From contig JAFCZI010000035.1 of the NCBI GenBank assembly GCA_019314425.1, positions 1-11,923 of the forward strand: a DNA stretch of 11,923 bases, in the 5' to 3' direction. Shown here one piece after another: positions 1,409 through 11,923 of the stretch. The notes under the pieces are model-generated. The model saw nothing but the letters and a program-made list of their open reading frames with translations. It did no database searches and had not been told where the DNA came from. The stretch is from Deltaproteobacteria bacterium. GTDB taxonomy: Bacteria; Desulfobacterota; DSM-4660; Desulfatiglandales; Desulfatiglandaceae. A program made the position numbers and the translations under genes. Every line of letters starts with the position of its first letter. Within the stretch, counting starts at the first letter, position 1.

Positions 1409-4327
1409 ATGAACGATCGTGTTTTTATAGAAGAGCAGTTCCCGGTCTCCAAGATTTCAAAGGAGAGTTATAAGGAGCGGAAGGCCGGGGCCAGCCAGAC
1501 CCTGACCAGCCTTGGAAAATGGTGGGGCCGAAAGCCCCTGGTGCTGGTGCGGGCTGCTATTATCGGGATGTTGATGCCGGTGTCTGATGACCCGAAAAAA
1601 GATCGGGACATTTTCCTCAAAATCATGACAATGGATGATGAGGGCCTGTGGCACAGGAAATCAAAATCCATTCCGGCTAAGGCGTTGCAGGGGCATTTGA
1701 GTAAAGATGAGTGGGATAAGCTGACGATTGATGAAGCTGGAGAACCCGGGCGCTCCTGGTCAAAAGGCCTGAGCCCTGCTGAAAAAGAGGCTGTTGTTCG
1801 TAAAGTCTTTGGCCGCATGTCCTACGATGAAAAGCTCACCTATTGCGACCGTCCCGAACAGATTGAGGGACCGGATAAAAAGGCGTGGCAGGCAATCAAC
1901 GAACATCTTGGCACAGATGCCGCCAGTCTTCAGGAGATTGTGACTGAACTGGGAAAACGCCGTTTCGGTCATGTGCCCAGGGTGGGGGATGCCTTCTGCG
2001 GAGGCGGTTCCATCCCCTTTGAGGCGGCGCGGCTGGGCTGCGAGGCCTATGGCTCTGACCTTAATCCCGTGGCCGCCCTGCTCACCTGGGCCGCCATTCA
2101 TCTCATCGGTGGGGGTGAGGCGGTTCAAAAACAGGTGCAGGAGGCCCAGAAAACCGCTTTTGAGGCGGCTGACAAACAGATAAGCGAATGGGAAATTGAG
2201 CATAATGACAAAGGCTGGCGGGCCGATGCCTATCTCTACTGCGTGGCGGCCAAATGCCCGGCTTCCGGTTTGATGCTGCCCCTCGCGCCTTCCTGGATCA
2301 TCAGCGAAAAGTATAAGGTCTGCGCAGTATTGAAACGAAACGATGCCCGGCAGGGATATAATATCGAGATTGTCACAGGGGCCGATGAAGCGACCTTTGC
2401 CGAAGCGAAAAAGGGGACGGTCCAAAACGGGCGTATGGTCTGTCCGGAAACCGGTGAGACCTTTTCCATAGCGTCCATTCGCGGTGATCGGAGAGTGGAT
2501 GGGGCAACGATTTATGGGTTGCGGCTCTGGGAAAATGATGATCTGGTCCCCCGGCCGGATGATGTCTTTCAGGAGCGGCTTTACTGTGTCCGGTGGGTGG
2601 AAACCTATTGGGAAGAAAATCGCCAGGGGAAGCGGGTGGAAAAGGCCCGTCGTCATTACAGCACAGTGAAGGATGATGACCTGCGCCGGGAAGACAGGGT
2701 GCTGGCATTGTTGAAGGAACGGTTTGCGGAATGGCAGGAGAAGGGGTTTATTCCGAGCAGAGCAATTGAACGGGGTGGCGAAAAGACAGAGGAGCCAATC
2801 CGAACACGCGGCTGGACCCATTGGCATCATTTGTTTAATCCGCGGCAGTTGTTGGTGCATGGCACACTTGCCAATAGCTCTAATTTGGATTTTGTTTTTC
2901 CCTTACTCGATATCGGTAAACTTGCAAATTCAGATTCTCGGATGACGATTTGGTATTCAGCTGCAGGAAAAGAGAGTATTTCCCAAACATTTTCCAATCA
3001 AGCGCTTAACCCACTTCTTAACTATGCGACAAGAAGCCTTTCATATTCCCTACCAATCTGGACAGAATCAACACGCAGATTTGTTGAAAAATACATTTTC
3101 CCAAGAATAACCGAAATAGTCCCTGGTGATGCTCGTCATGTAATGGGAGATTTTGATTTCTGGCTCACCGACCCACCATACGCAGATGCCATCAACTACC
3201 ACGAACTAACGGGTTTTTTTCTAGTCTGGTATGAAAAACATCTGCTTAAAGCCTTCCCAGACTGGTACACCGATACCAAAAAGGCTCTGGCCATCAGAGG
3301 CTCCGGTGAGGATTTCAAGCGTGCCATGGTTGACTCCTATGCCAACCTAACCAAACACATGCCTGACAACGGCCTTCAACTCGTCATGTTCACCCACCAG
3401 GACGCCTCGGTCTGGGCGGATCTGGCCATGATCCTTTGGGCTGCGGGGCTAAAGGTCACCGCTGCGTGGACCATTGGAACAGAAACATCATCCGGTTTAA
3501 AAAAAGGCAACTACGTCCAAGGAACCGTCCTCCTCATCCTCCGAAAACGCACCACCAACGAAACCGCCTTTCTCGATGAACTCTACCCGGAAATCGAGGA
3601 TGAAGTCCGCAGTCAACTTGACCAGATGCTGGCCCTGGACGACAAAGAAGACCCCAATTTTGGAGATACTGACTACCAGTTGGCCGCCTATGCTGCGGCC
3701 CTCCGGGTGCTCACCAGTTACAGTGAAATCGAAGGACACGACATCCGTCACGAGCTCTTCCGGCAAAAGGAGGCCCATGAAACATCCGCCTTTGAGCAGG
3801 TCATCAACCGGGCCGTGGAAATCGCATCCGACCACCTGGTCCCCAAGGGGCTTGAGACCCGCTACTGGAAAGTTCTGTCCGCCCCGGAACGGCTTTATCT
3901 GAAAGGCCTTGAACTGGAAAAAAACATGGAAGGGCGATCCGGAGCCTATCAGGAGTTAGCCAAAGGATTTGGGGTGAGGGATTACACCGGGCTCTACTAC
4001 CAGGCCAAGGCCAATGCGGTCCGCTTTAAGACCGGTTCCGAGTTCAAGAAAACAGGTTTGGGAAACGGCGAGTTTGGCGCCACCCCCCTGCGCAATATCC
4101 TCTTTGCCATCCATGAGGTTGTGCGCACCGATAACGCCAGGCAGGGGTTGAACTGGCTGAGAGAGGAAGTCCCCACCTACTGGCAGCAGCGCAAACAAAT
4201 GGTTGCCGTGCTCAAATACCTTGCCGCCCTGGCCCACATCTCCCACATGCCGCATTGGGAAAAAGATGCCGACGCTGCTCAGCGGTTATCCGGAGCAGTA
4301 GAAAACGATCATGCTGGAACTCTATAA
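1409..4327 (+). CDS. DUF1156 adenine-specific DNA methyltransferase
   Basis: A 972-residue predicted DNA amino-methyltransferase, expected to methylate adenine with S-adenosylmethionine. The N-terminus has the DUF1156 hallmark, a Lys/Ser-rich lead followed by KWWGRKPL (about residues 38-45). The SAM-binding motif I is DAFCGGGS at 194-201, followed by GSDLNPVA, where the acidic residue should contact SAM. The catalytic motif IV is DPPY at 588-591. A middle section with C278, C283, C305 and C345 resembles the zinc-ribbon region of the family but keeps only part of the usual cysteine pairs. The C-terminal part (about 700-960) is helical and conserved in character but unassigned. The ATG follows agaggtg at 1397-1403. 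The helicase gene starts 12 bases after the stop, so the two form an operon. Residues about 491-571 are encoded by unusually AT-rich DNA. A defence or restriction-linked role is inferred from the helicase neighbour. Confidence 0.9.
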   Translation: MNDRVFIEEQFPVSKISKESYKERKAGASQTLTSLGKWWGRKPLVLVRAAIIGMLMPVSDDPKKDRDIFLKIMTMDDEGLWHRKSKSIPAKALQGHLSKDEWDKLTIDEAGEPGRSWSKGLSPAEKEAVVRKVFGRMSYDEKLTYCDRPEQIEGPDKKAWQAINEHLGTDAASLQEIVTELGKRRFGHVPRVGDAFCGGGSIPFEAARLGCEAYGSDLNPVAALLTWAAIHLIGGGEAVQKQVQEAQKTAFEAADKQISEWEIEHNDKGWRADAYLYCVAAKCPASGLMLPLAPSWIISEKYKVCAVLKRNDARQGYNIEIVTGADEATFAEAKKGTVQNGRMVCPETGETFSIASIRGDRRVDGATIYGLRLWENDDLVPRPDDVFQERLYCVRWVETYWEENRQGKRVEKARRHYSTVKDDDLRREDRVLALLKERFAEWQEKGFIPSRAIERGGEKTEEPIRTRGWTHWHHLFNPRQLLVHGTLANSSNLDFVFPLLDIGKLANSDSRMTIWYSAAGKESISQTFSNQALNPLLNYATRSLSYSLPIWTESTRRFVEKYIFPRITEIVPGDARHVMGDFDFWLTDPPYADAINYHELTGFFLVWYEKHLLKAFPDWYTDTKKALAIRGSGEDFKRAMVDSYANLTKHMPDNGLQLVMFTHQDASVWADLAMILWAAGLKVTAAWTIGTETSSGLKKGNYVQGTVLLILRKRTTNETAFLDELYPEIEDEVRSQLDQMLALDDKEDPNFGDTDYQLAAYAAALRVLTSYSEIEGHDIRHELFRQKEAHETSAFEQVINRAVEIASDHLVPKGLETRYWKVLSAPERLYLKGLELEKNMEGRSGAYQELAKGFGVRDYTGLYYQAKANAVRFKTGSEFKKTGLGNGEFGATPLRNILFAIHEVVRTDNARQGLNWLREEVPTYWQQRKQMVAVLKYLAALAHISHMPHWEKDADAAQRLSGAVENDHAGTL

Positions 4328-4339
4328 TCGGATAATGGA

Positions 4340-7054
4340 ATGATCAGAAGATTTTCCTCCAGACGGCAGAAACTAGATGCTTCCTTCATCAATGAACGGC
4401 TGAAAGACGCCGTATCTTATGACCGGATTGCCGGGTACTTTCGGTCATCCCTTCTTGAGGTAGCCGGTGAACAATTGGCCGGCTTGGATGGAAAGATCCG
4501 GGTTGTCTGTAATTCCGATATCGAAGAAGGTGATGCGCTGACGGCAAAGGCGGCCCAGCAGGCTTTACGCAAGTCATGGTGCGCCGGAGAGCCTGAAAAA
4601 CTCCCGGAAAAGGCAAAAGACCGTTTTGGACGTCTCTACGATCTGCTGGCATCCGGGAAAATGGCGGTCAAGGTATTGCCGGACCCGGCATTTGGGCTCG
4701 TTCACGGCAAGGCCGGGATTATTCGATACAAGGATGGTCAAAAAACATGCTTCATGGGCAGCGCCAATGAAAGCCTTGCAGCATGGAAGCTCAATTATGA
4801 ACTGGTGTGGGAAGATAATTCCGATGAGGCCATTCAATGGGTTCAGGAAGAGTTTGACGCGCTGTGGTTTCACCCGACGGCCATCCCTCTGAGTGATTTC
4901 GTTGTCGCTGATATTAAAAGGCTGGCAAACCGCCGGGAAGTTTCCATAACAGACTGGAAGGACAACCCTGAAAGTGATCCGGCTTCAGGGGTTGTTGAAA
5001 CACCGGTATATCGCAAAGAGTACGGCCTGTGGACGCATCAGAAATATTTTGTCAAACTGGCCTATGATGCCCATTTACAGGGGGGCGCCCGTTTTGTTCT
5101 GGCTGACCAGGTGGGATTGGGCAAAACTATTCAGCTCGCCTTGAGCGCCATGCTGATGGCGCTTCATGGAGAAAAACCGTGCCTGATCATCGTTCCGAAA
5201 CAACTCACCTCACAATGGCAAGGCGAACTCCGGGATCTTCTGGCGATGCCCTCAGCCGTCTGGACAGGGAAGGAATGGATTGATGAGCAGGGGATTATCC
5301 ATCCGGCACACGGACCGGAATCAATCAAGAAATGCCCCCGGAGAGTGGGGATTGTCTCTCAGGGTCTAATCACCTCAAGATCTGAAATTGCCGAACACCT
5401 CAAATCAATGACATTTGAATGCGTCATCGTCGATGAATCGCACAGGGCACGACGGCGCAAAGTCAGTAATCAGAGCATCTATGAAAACGCTGATCCCAAC
5501 AATTTAATGCGGTTTCTCTGGGAGATCAGCTCCCGAACCAAAAGTCTTCTGTTGGCAACCGCAACCCCGGTTCAGCTTCATCCCATCGAGGCCTGGGACC
5601 TTCTGCGTATACTGGCGATAGGCAATGGTAAGGTCTTAGGGACAGAATGGAGCGAATGGAATAAACCGGATAGAGCCATCCCGGTCGTTATGGGCGAGCA
5701 GGAAATTCCAAGCGAACTGGGTGGCGCCTGGCGGTGGATCAGAAACCCATTGCCCCCGGCATCTGAAGGCCTTACTTTCAGAAACCTGCGGAAAACACTT
5801 GGGCTAAAAGACGATGATTGTATTTCCAGCGGCGACAGCCTGGAAAAGCTACGCCCTGCCGAAATCACTCGGCTCAGGAGCGTTATCCCCGGGTTCGGAA
5901 GGGAACACAATCCCTTCCTTCGGCATATTGTCAGAAGAACCCGTAACTACCTTGAACAGACAATTGATCCCGCAACTGGGGAACCATACCTCAAACCGGT
6001 CAAAGTGACACTCTTCGGCGAAGGCCCGGAAGACGCCATCCCTCTACCTCTCTATCTCAATGATGCCTACCAGGCGGCGGAGTCGTTTTGCAGCTTGTTG
6101 AGCCAGAGAGCTAAGGGAGCAGGATTCTTGAAAACCCTGCTGTTAAGAAGGATCGGGAGCACCATATATGCGGGACGACAGACAACCGAAAAGATGCTGT
6201 CCGAGTGGGGGAACGAAAGCCGGATTGTGAATGCCGCCCTCTTTGAAGAAGATGATGACGTCCCGGTTGATTATGGGACCCCCGGCAGCAGCATGAAGGA
6301 CCTTACCGCTGTGGAAAGGGATGAACTTAACCGCTGCCTCAAGGCCCTTGAAGCCAATCAGGACCGTGATCCAAAATATCAAAAGGTGTTGGACTATTTG
6401 ATTTCCAAAGGCTGGCTGAACTTGGGCTGTATCGTTTTTTCCCAGTATTTTGATTCCATCTGGTGGTTGGCCCAACAGCTTTCCAACGAACTTAAAGATG
6501 AAGCCATCAGCGTCTATGCCGGCGGCGCAAACTCAGGGATAATGCTGAATGGAGAATTCAAGAAAACGTCACGTGATGAAATAAAACAAAAAATAGGCCG
6601 GGGCGAGCTCCGCTTACTTCTTGGGACGGACGCAGCGAGCGAAGGATTGAATTTACAGCGCCTCGGGACCCTCATTAACCTTGACCTCCCTTGGAATCCA
6701 ACACGGTTGGAACAGCGGAAGGGACGTATTCAACGGATCGGCCAGATGCGCGACGAAATATATGTTTGTAACATGCGTTATCAGGGGTCTGTTGAAGACC
6801 GTGTCCATGATTTGCTGTCCAGCCGTATGGAAGACATCTTCGGGTTGTTTGGGCAGATCCCGGATGTTTTGGAAGATGTCTGGATCGACGTTGCGAACGG
6901 TGAGATCAAAGAAGCAAAAAAACTCATAGCGTCCGTCCACCCCAAACACCCGTTTGATGAAAAATACAACCGGGTTGCGGAGTTTGACTGGGATACCTGC
7001 GCCATTGTGTTGAATGCGGAGGAAACAAAGAGCATACTGCTTGAGAAATGGTAA
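4340..7054 (+). CDS. SNF2-type helicase with N-terminal PLD-like domain
   Basis: A 904-residue protein with two parts. Residues about 1-170 look like a single phospholipase-D-type nuclease half-site: H122-G-K124, then GSANES at 140-145. Residues from about 230 are a superfamily 2 helicase of the SNF2/HepA group: Walker A in DQVGLGKT (K262), motif Ia-like LIIVPKQLTSQW, DESH at 365-368, TAT at 407-409, a long insertion (about 420-660), then GTDAASEGLN (762-771) and the arginine-finger motif GRIQRIGQ (795-802). All core ATPase motifs are present, so an active double-stranded DNA translocase is likely. The PLD domain may cut DNA, but one HxK site normally needs a dimer. There is no strong ribosome site before the ATG, only gga directly adjacent, so translation probably depends on the methylase gene 12 bases upstream. 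Fits anti-phage clusters of PLD-helicase with DUF1156 methylase. Confidence 0.9.
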   Translation: MIRRFSSRRQKLDASFINERLKDAVSYDRIAGYFRSSLLEVAGEQLAGLDGKIRVVCNSDIEEGDALTAKAAQQALRKSWCAGEPEKLPEKAKDRFGRLYDLLASGKMAVKVLPDPAFGLVHGKAGIIRYKDGQKTCFMGSANESLAAWKLNYELVWEDNSDEAIQWVQEEFDALWFHPTAIPLSDFVVADIKRLANRREVSITDWKDNPESDPASGVVETPVYRKEYGLWTHQKYFVKLAYDAHLQGGARFVLADQVGLGKTIQLALSAMLMALHGEKPCLIIVPKQLTSQWQGELRDLLAMPSAVWTGKEWIDEQGIIHPAHGPESIKKCPRRVGIVSQGLITSRSEIAEHLKSMTFECVIVDESHRARRRKVSNQSIYENADPNNLMRFLWEISSRTKSLLLATATPVQLHPIEAWDLLRILAIGNGKVLGTEWSEWNKPDRAIPVVMGEQEIPSELGGAWRWIRNPLPPASEGLTFRNLRKTLGLKDDDCISSGDSLEKLRPAEITRLRSVIPGFGREHNPFLRHIVRRTRNYLEQTIDPATGEPYLKPVKVTLFGEGPEDAIPLPLYLNDAYQAAESFCSLLSQRAKGAGFLKTLLLRRIGSTIYAGRQTTEKMLSEWGNESRIVNAALFEEDDDVPVDYGTPGSSMKDLTAVERDELNRCLKALEANQDRDPKYQKVLDYLISKGWLNLGCIVFSQYFDSIWWLAQQLSNELKDEAISVYAGGANSGIMLNGEFKKTSRDEIKQKIGRGELRLLLGTDAASEGLNLQRLGTLINLDLPWNPTRLEQRKGRIQRIGQMRDEIYVCNMRYQGSVEDRVHDLLSSRMEDIFGLFGQIPDVLEDVWIDVANGEIKEAKKLIASVHPKHPFDEKYNRVAEFDWDTCAIVLNAEETKSILLEKW

Positions 7055-7966: not shown

Positions 7967-8005
7967 TTTGCTGTACCAGGAGATTCAAAAGCGGAATTGC
8001 TTTCG

Positions 8006-8026
8006 GGAATCCTGATATGGGGTTCC
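8006..8026 (+). promoter_or_regulatory. Small leader hairpin before the receiver-like gene
   Basis: The arms ggaatcc (8006-8012) and gggttcc (8020-8026) form seven pairs including one G-T, around a 7-base loop, ending 39 bases before the ATG. It would lie in the 5' untranslated region of the operon. No T-run follows, so it is not a terminator. It could affect mRNA stability or be chance. Confidence 0.3.
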
Positions 8027-8065
8027 GTAAGCCGCATCCAACGGGAACACAACCGACACAGGGAT

Positions 8066-8440
8066 ATGGACGCAAACAAAACGATCCTCATCGCGGAACA
8101 GGCCGGGAACACCCCCAAAGCACTGGAGATTTTTGCTGCGGAGCAGGGATTTGAACTGCTGAAAGCCGACAATTTGAAGGATGTATTGCTGACCCTGCAG
8201 GAAAACAGAATTGATGCATTGGTGCTGGATGCGGCCCTGCTGGCAGAGGACTGCGGGTTCATCTCGGTCATAAAGGGGATGGGAAAAGACCTTCCCATCA
8301 TCGTTTGTGCGGAAAAAAACACCCCTGAACTGGAGAGCGAAATTCGTAAATACCAGATTTTCTATTACCATATCAAATCATTTGGAATTGAAGATCTCGT
8401 GATGGCCATCGTCAACGCTGTTAACGGGTTATCTCATTAA
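8066..8440 (+). CDS. Degenerate response-regulator receiver-domain protein
   Basis: A 124-residue stand-alone receiver (CheY-like) domain with no output domain. The beta1 strand KTILIAEQ should end in an acidic pair but has A10-E11. The phospho-acceptor position is kept as D55 in ALVLDAALL. The conserved Thr/Ser after beta4 is C81 in IIVCAE, and the conserved lysine is K104 in HIKSFG, without the usual following proline. Phosphorylation is therefore possible but the switch is altered. I chose ATG 8066, just before the first beta strand; a TTG at 7997 would add 23 residues of non-domain sequence. The stop lies 16 bases before the MetF-like ATG, so the genes are co-transcribed. Its place in a metabolic operon suggests it binds or tunes the redox complex rather than transcription; this is inference. 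Confidence 0.75.
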   Translation: MDANKTILIAEQAGNTPKALEIFAAEQGFELLKADNLKDVLLTLQENRIDALVLDAALLAEDCGFISVIKGMGKDLPIIVCAEKNTPELESEIRKYQIFYYHIKSFGIEDLVMAIVNAVNGLSH

Positions 8441-8456: not shown

Positions 8457-9332
8457 ATGCCGTTAAAGGAAAAAATTGTTGCTGGAAAATTTATTGTTCT
8501 GGGAGAATTCGAACCACCCAAGGGTGCTGTTTTCGATTCTTTTGTCAAGGAGGCCAACCTTGTCAGGGGTCGAATGGATGCTTTGGTGGTCCCGGAAATG
8601 GCCAACGCGGTTCTGAAGGCCAGTTCACTCGGGGGCTGCGCCTGTCTGGAAAGGGAGGGGATTGAGTCCGTGCTTCAAGTCTGTTGCAGAGACCGCAATC
8701 GTCTGGCCCTTCAAGCGGACATCCTGTCGGCAGCCGCCCTGGGCGTCAAAAACATCATGGCAGTCAGCGGCGTGGAGACCCGTTTCGGGGACCACCCCCA
8801 GACAAGGACCGTGAATGATCTGGATTTAATAGAACTGATTGAAACCCTGCAAGTCCTGAATCAGGGAAAAGACCTGGCCGGGGTTGAACTCAACGGGACG
8901 CCTTCCTTTTCCATTGGATCCGCCATTGACGCCGGCGCCACGGGGAATCTGCTGGATATCGAAATGGAACATCTTGAAAAAATGATAGCCTGCGGCGTGG
9001 ATTACGTCATCACCAATCCGATTTTTGACCTGAGACGTTTTGAACAGTTTATCAAGCGGGTGGATACGTCTAAAATTGCTGTGCTGCCCACCGTTCTCCT
9101 GCTGAAATCCGCCGGTATGGCCCATTATATTGATCGCAATATGAGGGGGATTTCCATCCCGCAAGATATGATCCGGCGCATCCAAAAAGCACCGGATAAA
9201 GTTCAGGAATGCGTTCGAATCGCGGCCGAAACCTTAAAACAGGTTAAGGCAATGAAAATGGCCGGCGTTTTGATTTCAACCGTCGGTTGGGAAAGCAAGC
9301 TCCCTTTAATCCTGAATGAGGCACAGATTTAA
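8457..9332 (+). CDS. MetF-like flavoprotein (methylenetetrahydrofolate reductase family)
   Basis: A 291-residue TIM-barrel flavoprotein of the methylenetetrahydrofolate reductase family. Family landmarks: EFEPPKG at 17-23, whose E17 matches the catalytic Glu28 of E. coli MetF; CCRDRNR at 76-82; FGDHP at 110-114; and VLPTVLLLKSAGMA followed by GISIPQDMIRRI near the C-terminus. Two key positions differ. The E. coli Asp120 position (normally TGD) is V106 in AVSGVETRFGD, and the E. coli Gln183 position is N187 in ITNPIFD. Folate binding or chemistry may therefore be altered. In acetogens MetF can form complexes with MetV, Hdr proteins and MvhD, and here an HdrA-like gene begins 23 bases downstream, so a comparable complex is likely. 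No MetV gene is in the window. I am sure of the family, less sure that it reduces methylenetetrahydrofolate. Confidence 0.88.
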   Translation: MPLKEKIVAGKFIVLGEFEPPKGAVFDSFVKEANLVRGRMDALVVPEMANAVLKASSLGGCACLEREGIESVLQVCCRDRNRLALQADILSAAALGVKNIMAVSGVETRFGDHPQTRTVNDLDLIELIETLQVLNQGKDLAGVELNGTPSFSIGSAIDAGATGNLLDIEMEHLEKMIACGVDYVITNPIFDLRRFEQFIKRVDTSKIAVLPTVLLLKSAGMAHYIDRNMRGISIPQDMIRRIQKAPDKVQECVRIAAETLKQVKAMKMAGVLISTVGWESKLPLILNEAQI

Positions 9333-9355
9333 ACATCGGAAAGGAATCCTAAATC

Positions 9356-11923
9356 ATGTCCAATAACCAGTCTCAACAGAAGTCAGGATCGGTAATGGTT
9401 GTCGGCGGCGGTATCGCCGGCATGCAGTCGGCCCTGGACCTGGCCAATTCAGGTTACCATGTTCAGCTTATTGAAGGGTCTTCAGCCATTGGGGGAATCA
9501 TGTCCGAACTGGACAAGACGTTTCCCACCAATGACTGCGCCATGTGAATTATCTCGCCCAAACTGGTCGAGGTCGGCCGGCATCTCAACATTGATTTAAT
9601 TACCTCCGCCGAGATAAAAAAGGTGGAAGGAACTGCGGGAAATTTCAACGTCACGGTTCAAAAAAAGCCACGTTTTATTGATACCACCAAGTGCACTGCC
9701 TGCGGGGACTGCACCGATGTGTGCCCCGTCGTACTTCCCAACGAGTATGATCAGGGAATGAGTCAGAAACGCGCCACATTCAAGAAATACGCTCAAGCCA
9801 TCCCCAGCGCCTTTGCCATTATGAAAGCGGACAAAGCACCGTGCCACGATGCCTGTCCCGCCGGATTGAATGTTCAAGGCTATGTCCAGATGGTGGGCCA
9901 GGGAAAATATGAGCAAGCCCTTCAAATCATCATGAAGGAGCTACCCCTGCCAGGCGTCCTGGGCCGCATCTGCCCGCACGCCTGCGAAGAGGCCTGTCGA
10001 AGATGCGAAGTGGACAACCCCGTGGCCATCCGCAACCTGAAACGGCTGGCGGCGGATAAGTTTGATCCCAGGGAAATCCAAATCGATTGTCTCCCTTCAC
10101 GACCAGAAAAGGTGGCCATCATCGGTTCGGGTCCGGCGGGTCTTTCCGCCGCTTATCATCTGGCGCGAAAAGGCATTTCCTGCACCATTTTCGAAGCACT
10201 TTCCAAACCCGGTGGCATGCTCCGCGTGGGCATTCCGGACCATCGGCTGCCCCAGGACATTCTGGACCAGGAGATTGAAATCATCACCCGTCTGGGCCAG
10301 GAAATCAAAACCGACACCCGCCTGGGCGTGGATTTCACCGTAGACAGTCTGTTTGAAGAGGGTTACAAGTCCGTCTATCTGGCCATTGGCGCCCACAAAG
10401 GGATTGGTCTGCAGATTCCGGGAGAAGAGGCCAAAGGCGTTCGACAGGGGGTGGATTTTCTGCGGGAAGTAAACCTTGACGGAACAACCCCGGTCGGCAG
10501 GCAGGTGGCCATCATCGGTGGCGGAAATGTCGCCATTGACGTATCGCGTGCGGCGATTCGACTGGGTGCCGAAGCGGTCCATATCCTGTATCGCAGAACC
10601 CGTGCCGAAATGCCCGCCTGGGAGGAAGAAATTGACGCGGCGGAAGCCGAAGGGGTCCAGATCGCCTACCTGGCAGCCCCCGAAGAAGTGCTGGTCCGGG
10701 AAGGCCGGGTGGTGGGCCTGCGTTGTTTGCGAATGGAACTGGGCGAACCGGATGCATCGGGTCGAAGGCGCCCTGTCCCCATTCCGGGCAGTGCGTATGA
10801 TCTGGAAATTGACCAACTCATCCCGGCCATCGGTCAGAAACCGGACCTTTCCGCGCTGGAACACATCAAGGACTTGGATTTTTCATCGCGGGGTACGGCT
10901 GAAACAGATGACCTGACTTTTGCCACAGGGCGGGAAGGGGTATTTGCCGGTGGTGACCTTCAGACCGGCCCGGCCCAGGCCATTATGGCCATTGCAGCGG
11001 GACGGGAAGCGGCCTGCTCCATTGAGCGCTTTCTGGACGGTGAGGACATGGCCGAAGGACGAAAGCCCCTGGTCACGGATACGCCTGATTACCGCCCCAT
11101 TCCCGAAAATATGCCCCTGGAACTCAGAAAACCCATGCCCGAGCTCCCCGTATCGGATCGGGCCGGGAATTTCAGGGAGGTGGAACTGGGCTATCAGGAA
11201 CCGGAAGGTCAACAGGAAGCGCAGCGATGCCTGAACTGCGGGTACTGCTGCGAATGCTTCCAGTGTGTGGATGCCTGCAAGGCTGACGCGGTAACCCTCA
11301 TCACCCACGCGGAACAATCCGAAACCCTTGAGCTCACGACGGGAGCCATTATTCTGGCGCCGGGATTCCAGCCTTTTGACCCATCCGGATTGGAAACCTA
11401 TCATTATACGGAATATCCCAATGTGATCACTTCCATGGAGTTTGAGAGGATCCTCTCAGCTTCGGGTCCCACCATGGGGCACCTGGTCCGGGTTTCAGAT
11501 CATGCGGAACCTAAGAAAATCGCCTGGATTCAGTGCGTGGGATCCCGGGATGTCCATAACTGCGACCATGTTTACTGTTCCTCGGTGTGCTGTATGTACG
11601 CCATCAAGGAAGCGGTCATCGCCAAGGAACACGCAGGGGATGACCTGGATTGCGCCATTTTCTACATGGACATGCGAACCCATGGGAAAGACTTTGAAAT
11701 TTACTACAACAATGCCAGGGACAAACACGGGGTCCGCTTCATAAGATCCCGGATACACACCATTGATCCCAAACTTGACGATGATGCCCTGATTCTGAAA
11801 TACGCGACCGAAACCGGCGAATTCATCGAGGAAGAATTTGATCTGGTGGTACTCTCCGTGGGCATGGAAATATCGCCCCAGGTGGTCGAACTGGCTGAAA
11901 ACATCGGACTGGATCTGAACGAA
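9356..11923 (+). CDS. hdrA: Selenocysteine HdrA fused with GltD-like module (3' incomplete)
   Basis: An HdrA-like electron-transfer flavoprotein, 856 codons visible and open at the window edge. Domains in order: FAD site GGGIAG (G17, G19, G22); [12 protein letters not shown] then TGA codon 64 then IISPKLVE; a 4Fe-4S motif C113, C116, C119, C123; a GltD/NfnB-type module with cysteines C163, C167, C206, C210, C214 and C217, a second FAD motif GSGPAG (257-262) and an NAD(P) motif GGGNVA (388-393) followed by [14 protein letters not shown]; a dense cysteine set C625 to C641; then the HdrA region with C727, C741, C745 and C746, the last three in [14 protein letters not shown]. The frame has no stop but the TGA, and homology continues across it, so the TGA is read as selenocysteine. 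The ribosome site aagga is at 9341-9345. Probably takes electrons from NAD(P)H and splits them between iron-sulfur carriers and the MetF-like partner. Insertion of a GltD module inside HdrA is unusual. Confidence 0.9.
9545..9547 (+). other. In-frame TGA read as selenocysteine (codon 64)
   Basis: The TGA lies within [20 protein letters not shown]. In cysteine-type HdrA proteins this position is Cys (NDCAMC), and Cys-to-Sec replacement is the usual pattern for selenoproteins. The frame is open on both sides and protein similarity is uninterrupted, which argues against a nonsense mutation or frameshift. Confidence 0.88.
9569..9586 (+). promoter_or_regulatory. Candidate bacterial SECIS stem-loop
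   Basis: The arms gaggt (9569-9573) and atctc (9582-9586) form five pairs, one of them G-T, around the 8-base loop cggccggc. The loop begins 26 bases after the TGA and has G at its second position, which fits the general bacterial SECIS pattern (a hairpin shortly 3' of UGA inside the coding region, G near the loop start). The stem is short and an overlapping weaker hairpin starts at ctcg 9553-9556, so the exact fold is uncertain. Confidence 0.5.

Follow-up and report, generated by a model that had tools for sequence, protein, structure and literature searches.

Selenocysteine (Sec)-containing members of the GltD-split type of HdrA protein were reported in 2009 for HdrL of Desulfobacterium autotrophicum HRM2 (PMC2702500), and a ‘hdrA_N-unknown-hdrA_C’ arrangement had been noted already in 2006 (PMC1794560). 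The 2006 report also lists a Sec HdrA together with FrhD for Moorella thermoacetica, which may or may not be the MetVF-linked HdrA of that organism. A cluster described from marine Chloroflexi includes hdrBC (PMC5736913), and residues E356 and K409 of HdrA have been linked to bifurcation. These systems are described here, and compared below, as far as the accessible text of each source goes. Our literature search, which had most subscription journals outside its reach, found no description of a Sec-HdrL-MvhD-MetVF operon in Desulfobacterota. Here we analysed a stretch of 11,923 nucleotides (henceforth referred to as ‘the window’), which is the entire contig C358 of a draft metagenome-type assembly (475 contigs, 2.81 Mb in total, completeness 80%), and in which the following features bear on such an operon:

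8066..8440, + strand: response-regulator-like gene (scanned as 7997-8440; PF00072 at 30.1 bits, just below the cut-off of 30.2)
8457..9332, + strand: second MetF-like gene of the MTHFR family (PF02219 at 81 bits, scanned from TTG 8442; the likelier start is ATG 8457, with GGAGG ahead of it)
9340..9345, + strand: likely ribosome-binding site AAAGGA of hdrL, with a 10-nt spacer to ATG 9356
9356..11923, + strand: hdrL-type gene, a probable Sec-containing HdrA-GltD-HdrA fusion, cut at the window end and extending to 1483 codons on contig C337
9356..9826, + strand: HdrA part 1, residues 1-157, with the FAD Rossmann start, the C61-A-M-U64 motif and the first half of the inserted ferredoxin domain (146-290 of 5odc)
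9545..9547, + strand: in-frame TGA, codon 64, very probably read as Sec, corresponding to Cys197 of M. thermolithotrophicus HdrA
9563..9580, + strand: bacterial SECIS-like hairpin over codons 70-75, 15 nt after the TGA, with a 7-bp stem and the loop AGGU
9827..11239, + strand: inserted GltD-like NAD(P)H module, residues ~158-628 (Fer4_20, Pyr_redox_2)
11240..11923, + strand: HdrA part 2, residues 629-856, with the equivalents of E356 and K409 (5odc match)

The frame that begins at ATG 9356 runs for 63 codons before it meets the TGA, and it then stays open for 792 codons up to the window end. The original prediction had claimed as much, and the gene even reaches further: contig C337 has an exact 114-nt overlap with the 3′ end of the window, hdrL continues there, and the joined gene contains 1483 codons with a single in-frame TGA and a TAA stop. 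Both before and after the TGA, the read-through protein matched an HdrA of known structure (5odc), with residues 13-157 and 629-852 aligning to one continuous stretch of it (146-290 and 291-510, respectively). In the alignment of the joined translation the TGA falls on the second cysteine of the D-C194-S-I-C197 (C194-x-x-C197) motif of M. thermolithotrophicus HdrA, thereby bearing out its predicted position at a conserved HdrA cysteine. Residue 64 may be a cluster ligand or may form a C-x-x-U redox pair with Cys61; our literature search found no named ligand for the HdrA residue aligned to codon 64.

Since the 5odc match is split between residues 290 and 291, the insertion lies inside the HdrA ferredoxin domain, and the inserted stretch (residues ~158-628) is a GltD-like NAD(P)H module. 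The part encoded on C337 adds a second HdrA-like module and, at the end, two 4Fe-4S motifs. The equivalents of E356 and K409 (M. thermolithotrophicus HdrA numbering) are both kept in the first HdrA module; the second module has Asp at the E356 position and Lys at the K409 position. Hence, the earlier assignment to the HdrA family stands as regards the matches on both sides of the TGA, but not as regards a plain HdrA: because of the GltD-like insertion the protein is a fusion, of the HdrL or ‘type III’ HdrA-GltD kind, encoded in a MetVF operon. We consider it almost certain that the gene is of the HdrL type, that is, an HdrA with its ferredoxin domain split by a GltD-like module and followed by a second HdrA-like module. 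Judging by its fold families, the GltD module may oxidise NAD(P)H.

Across C358 and C337 the gene order is metF-like, hdrL, mvhD, metV and metF, where the start codon of mvhD lies directly 3′ of the hdrL stop and the downstream genes were identified by Pfam profiles (mvhD PF02662, metV PF12225 and metF PF02219). The second MetF-like gene upstream of hdrL recurs in 21 of the 41 MetVF-linked loci; on that side several of the contigs are cut. In a close relative (L077, 14437-15486) an open reading frame downstream of metF looks, by eye, like a fusion between an RnfB-type ferredoxin protein and something GltD-like. Among 81 loci (our own and 80 from named genomes) mvhD follows hdrL in 66, and in none of the remaining 15, many of which come from contig ends, was mvhD within reach. 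When only the 59 loci whose sequence extends 3.2 kb or more beyond hdrL were counted, mvhD was present in 57 and the complete set of mvhD, metV and metF in 32.

The mvhD gene itself contains an in-frame TGA at codon 16 (CCQF-U-GY; contig C337, L039, 2343-2341, minus strand). In 72 distinct relatives this codon is TGA (45), TGC (19) or TGT (8) and nothing else, and in the 66 loci in which mvhD follows hdrL it is TGA in 42, TGC in 17 and TGT in 7. When mvhD was examined for the hairpin, the TGA and Cys genes gave similar proportions (25/45 versus 14/27 at -5), and the putative second Sec is accordingly proposed on grounds of homology. Linkage could be assessed in 65 loci, of which 41 were MetVF-linked with a TGA mvhD, 23 were unlinked with a Cys mvhD and one (L132) was unlinked with a TGA mvhD; L127 was assigned by hand to the ‘not MetVF’ loci, its metV adjoining a second mvhD ~4 kb further on. 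Thus, the presence of Sec-type MvhD agrees with that of adjoining MetVF genes in 64 of the 65 loci, which amounts to four independent contrasts when counted on supported branches only (sign test p 0.125, not significant alone). The two kinds of MvhD are roughly 54-94% and 39-55% identical to the MvhD encoded next to our hdrL; they are therefore fairly different proteins, and the pattern reflects a subtype and not a simple codon switch.

The closest named proteins to that of the window, from loci in named genomes, are those of MASpbin.1 (89%) and Delta proteobacterium NaphS2 (88%), and the three form one supported group in an 81-protein tree. From this kinship we infer that the host is a sulfate-reducing, acetyl-CoA-oxidising bacterium; CODH/ACS was found in the same draft genome (PF03598, 226.6 bits). 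The window also carries, at 1409-7054 (+), a DUF1156 methylase (NF042963, 1369 bits) and, after it, a PLD-helicase (NF042964, 1271 bits); the two families are curated as anti-phage-associated.

The explanation that we favour overall, and hold to be probable, is a Sec-HdrL made with the help of a bSECIS hairpin and coupled via MvhD to MetVF in electron bifurcation or confurcation. Under this scheme the UGA at codon 64 would be decoded as Sec; the GltD module of HdrL would take electron pairs from, or give them to, NAD(P)H; and the electrons would travel through [4Fe-4S] clusters and reach the FAD in the first HdrA module, which keeps the bifurcation-type E and K residues. That module would split electrons between, or merge them from, MvhD-MetVF and a low-potential carrier such as ferredoxin, with MvhD as the link from HdrL to MetVF and with MetVF interconverting methylene-THF and methyl-THF. 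HdrL would most likely use flavin-based bifurcation or confurcation to couple NAD(P)H with ferredoxin and methylene-/methyl-THF. For a sulfate reducer that oxidises acetyl-CoA, the reverse reaction, in which methyl-THF and reduced ferredoxin would yield NAD(P)H by confurcation, would be the more useful one, although we propose this oxidative direction only tentatively. Methyl-THF oxidation is a thermodynamically awkward step of the reversed Wood-Ljungdahl pathway, and the operon, if it works as proposed, would explain how uncultured sulfate reducers withdraw electrons from methyl-THF. It is imaginable, though we think it rather unlikely, that HdrL-MvhD-MetVF of Desulfobacterota forms a class of its own among the methylene-THF reductases, one that lacks HdrBC and would have two Sec residues (one in the electron-splitting module of HdrL and one in the MvhD link), run mainly in the oxidative Wood-Ljungdahl direction with electrons passing from methyl-THF and reduced ferredoxin to NAD(P)+, and use a Sec-MvhD specific to MetVF.

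The alternative that survives best accepts the Sec-HdrL and takes the operon as mere neighbourhood, with HdrL-MvhD serving DsrC, formate dehydrogenase or a similar partner. MetVF is not the sole partner of HdrL-type proteins, because HdrL is not beside MetVF in 18-24 of the mvhD-bearing loci (24 of the 65 assessed); published HdrL loci adjoin dsrABC or fdh (PMC2702500, PMC12142623), and in S. ovata MetVF was pulled down with Hdr proteins, yet without copurification in the account available (PMC9430772). In favour of MetVF, hdrL, mvhD and metV (with or without metF) stand together in the other 41 loci, the Sec type of MvhD follows this linkage as described above, and the GltD-split HdrA of Moorella is encoded with MetVF and MvhD (PMC9430772). 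Overall, we regard MetVF as the likely partner of HdrL in this operon, and a different partner as unlikely.

We turn to the TGA itself. Matches at E 1e-15 in 110 loci (L047-L156), some of which probably share a genome, gave 121 homologous frames, and the aligned codon in these is TGA in 108, TGC in seven and TGT in six, with no others. The 80 loci from named genomes were fetched by peptide words that do not contain the Sec site, and the others via the first 240 residues, which matched (E 1e-25) in 60 of 61 genomes (our own and 60 relatives). Within the draft genome itself, the aligned codon is TGA in four other HdrA paralogues as well. Since the codon is only ever TGA, TGC or TGT and since these paralogues share the TGA, a chance TGA is ruled out. 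Both TGA and Cys forms occur in NaphS2 (L078, L111), D. widdelii (L135, L136) and TRIP AH-1 (L082, L141). The state of HdrL (Sec or Cys) requires four changes on a quick tree of the 81 proteins, which was made from a single alignment with all columns including codon 64 and whose midpoint root leaves the deepest change undirected. There was no supported association between Sec in HdrL and MetVF linkage (Sec in 37 of 41 linked versus 19 of 24 unlinked loci).

The hairpin that follows the TGA was compared with a bSECIS model (PMC13188914, as far as available) that has a loop of 3-9 nt, a stem of 4-16 bp, a G among the first two loop bases and 16-37 nt from UGA to loop. After removal of identical or cut sequences, 104, 101 and 103 sequences were kept for the analyses of hairpin energy, stem pairs and synonymous codons, respectively; the counts refer to related sequences and not to independent events. 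The hairpin of the window gene fits the model, and a fitting hairpin at -5 kcal/mol or lower was present in 91/91 TGA genes versus 1/13 Cys genes. Compared with shuffles of synonymous codons, the TGA genes had a mean of -9.25 versus -3.15 (mean z -2.44; p < 0.1 in 81/91) and the Cys genes a mean of -3.48 versus -2.73 (mean z -0.38; p < 0.1 in 1/13). All seven pairs of the window's stem are kept in 85 of 88 TGA genes versus none of 13 Cys genes, and 80 of these 88 TGA genes have AGGT as the loop. At codons 70-75 a single synonym is used in 97-100% of 90 TGA genes, whereas at the degenerate neighbouring codons (65-69 and 76-79) the commonest synonym accounts for 31-89%. The genome's four other TGA paralogues include three with the identical 18-mer; C311:6558 is the one that lacks it.

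On its own the window hairpin did not differ significantly from dinucleotide shuffles (z -0.37 to -1.02), the minimum for its 81-nt context is another fold, and a scan of the window against Rfam at gathering thresholds matched no family. Compensatory covariation was not found in the stem, which is nearly invariant, so what speaks here is conservation at synonymous sites. On this comparative evidence the hairpin is a bSECIS-type element under synonymous-site selection, and the sharp synonymous-site contrast between Sec and Cys forms of one family offers a clean natural experiment on how the bacterial SECIS functions.

These data also bear on the possibility that the TGA is a real stop in a decayed gene, so that translation would yield a 63-aa peptide or would begin anew inside the gene, for example at GTG 9623. 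Mechanical ORF finding does yield exactly these two pieces, the program-made list containing the 63-aa fragment and the late GTG start. However, translation from 9623 would leave out the FAD-binding start as well as the C-x-x-U motif although conservation extends to both sides of the TGA, the joined frame has no other stop over its whole length, and third positions downstream of the TGA are strongly constrained in TGA genes only. We therefore consider a real stop highly improbable; instead, annotation that relies on stop codons easily splits central energy-metabolism proteins of sulfate reducers, as here.

A sequencing or assembly error, by which the codon would truly be TGC or TGT and the protein an ordinary Cys protein, is less probable still. 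The fragmented and incomplete draft assembly and the TGC or TGT codons of 13 of the 121 relatives would fit such an error, but the remaining 108 frames include TGA in the isolate genome of NaphS2 (L078) and in the complete chromosomes of D. magnum (L084) and D. alkanivorans (L089), and the TGA recurs in the four paralogues and is followed by the SECIS-type hairpin in the window gene.

The selenocysteine machinery, which the original prediction expected in the host and whose absence would have spoken against it, is all present in the draft genome: tRNA-Sec scored 70.7 bits (cut-off 47) and was called as tRNA-SeC by ARAGORN, and selA (611 bits), selB (390 bits) and selD (387 bits) were over their cut-offs. 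The selD gene (contig C465:1190-2116; L017) has one in-frame TGA and is likely to encode a selenoprotein itself. In a sample of the phylum, tRNA-Sec was over the cut-off in 110 of 118 genomes, a count restricted to scores over the cut-off since specificity below it is weak (14/14 controls gave a signal); thus, the Sec trait is not rare in the phylum. A genome-wide reassignment of TGA to another amino acid (a Trp or Gly code) might be read from the TAA stops of 7/7 other window genes checked, the window alone showing no TGA stop, but it is hardly credible given that metV on C337 ends at a TGA overlapping the metF ATG, likewise in relatives L079 and L082, so that TGA is still a stop in this genome, that tRNA-Sec and selA/B/D are present and that the residue is Cys in relatives without TGA. 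Overall, homology, the identity of the codon in relatives, the SECIS hairpin with its synonymous-site constraint and the full Sec machinery agree with the predicted Sec at codon 64, and on these sequence-based grounds recoding of the UGA as Sec is well supported and very probable.

With regard to the described systems, HdrL1 and HdrL3 of D. autotrophicum HRM2 resemble the window's protein in being heterodisulfide reductase/glutamate synthase fusions that contain Sec and are followed by mvhD (some mvhD also with Sec); however, the D. autotrophicum hdrL loci adjoin dsr or fdh genes, whereas hdrL of the window precedes mvhD-metV-metF (PMC2702500). The HdrA of the MetVF-HdrBCA-MvhD complex of Moorella thermoacetica is of nearly the same length (1487 versus 1483 residues) and shares the GltD-interrupted first module, the second TrxR-like module and the adjoining mvhD and metVF genes (PMC9430772). 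The Moorella cluster includes hdrBC, whereas a search with the HdrB profile PF02754 found no hdrBC on C358 or C337 (PMC9430772 for Moorella). The draft genome (~80% complete) has 11 PF02754 matches, two pairs of which adjoin other HdrA paralogues (C311:780-1427 and C316:4983-5684). HdrB-type CCG domains lie directly upstream of another Sec-type HdrL paralogue on contig C311 (L040, 780-4091 and on). The operon would thus seem to work like a Moorella-type complex, yet without all its features, hdrB and hdrC having been found on neither contig.

Thermacetogenium phaeum likewise has hdrA and an F420-hydrogenase-type subunit beside metFV, with hdrBC elsewhere; it differs in being a thermophilic acetogen, and the available account reports no Sec for its hdrA (PMC6895022). 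The type III HdrA of methane-metabolising archaea shares with that of the window the GltD within the ferredoxin domain and E356 and K409 in the first module, but comprises only nine archaeal sequences in that account, whereas ours is bacterial and has a second HdrA module and Sec (PMC12054007). The Sec-HdrA proteins of methanogens and deltaproteobacteria belong, like ours, to the selenoprotein HdrA family with a bacterial SECIS within the gene, although their classic operon is given as hdrA-frhD-frhG-frhA, without metVF (PMC1794560, PMC2933860). Sec-HdrL as a protein type is therefore already known, and the notable points at this locus are that the gene belongs to a folate-reductase operon and that its hairpin is strictly conserved.
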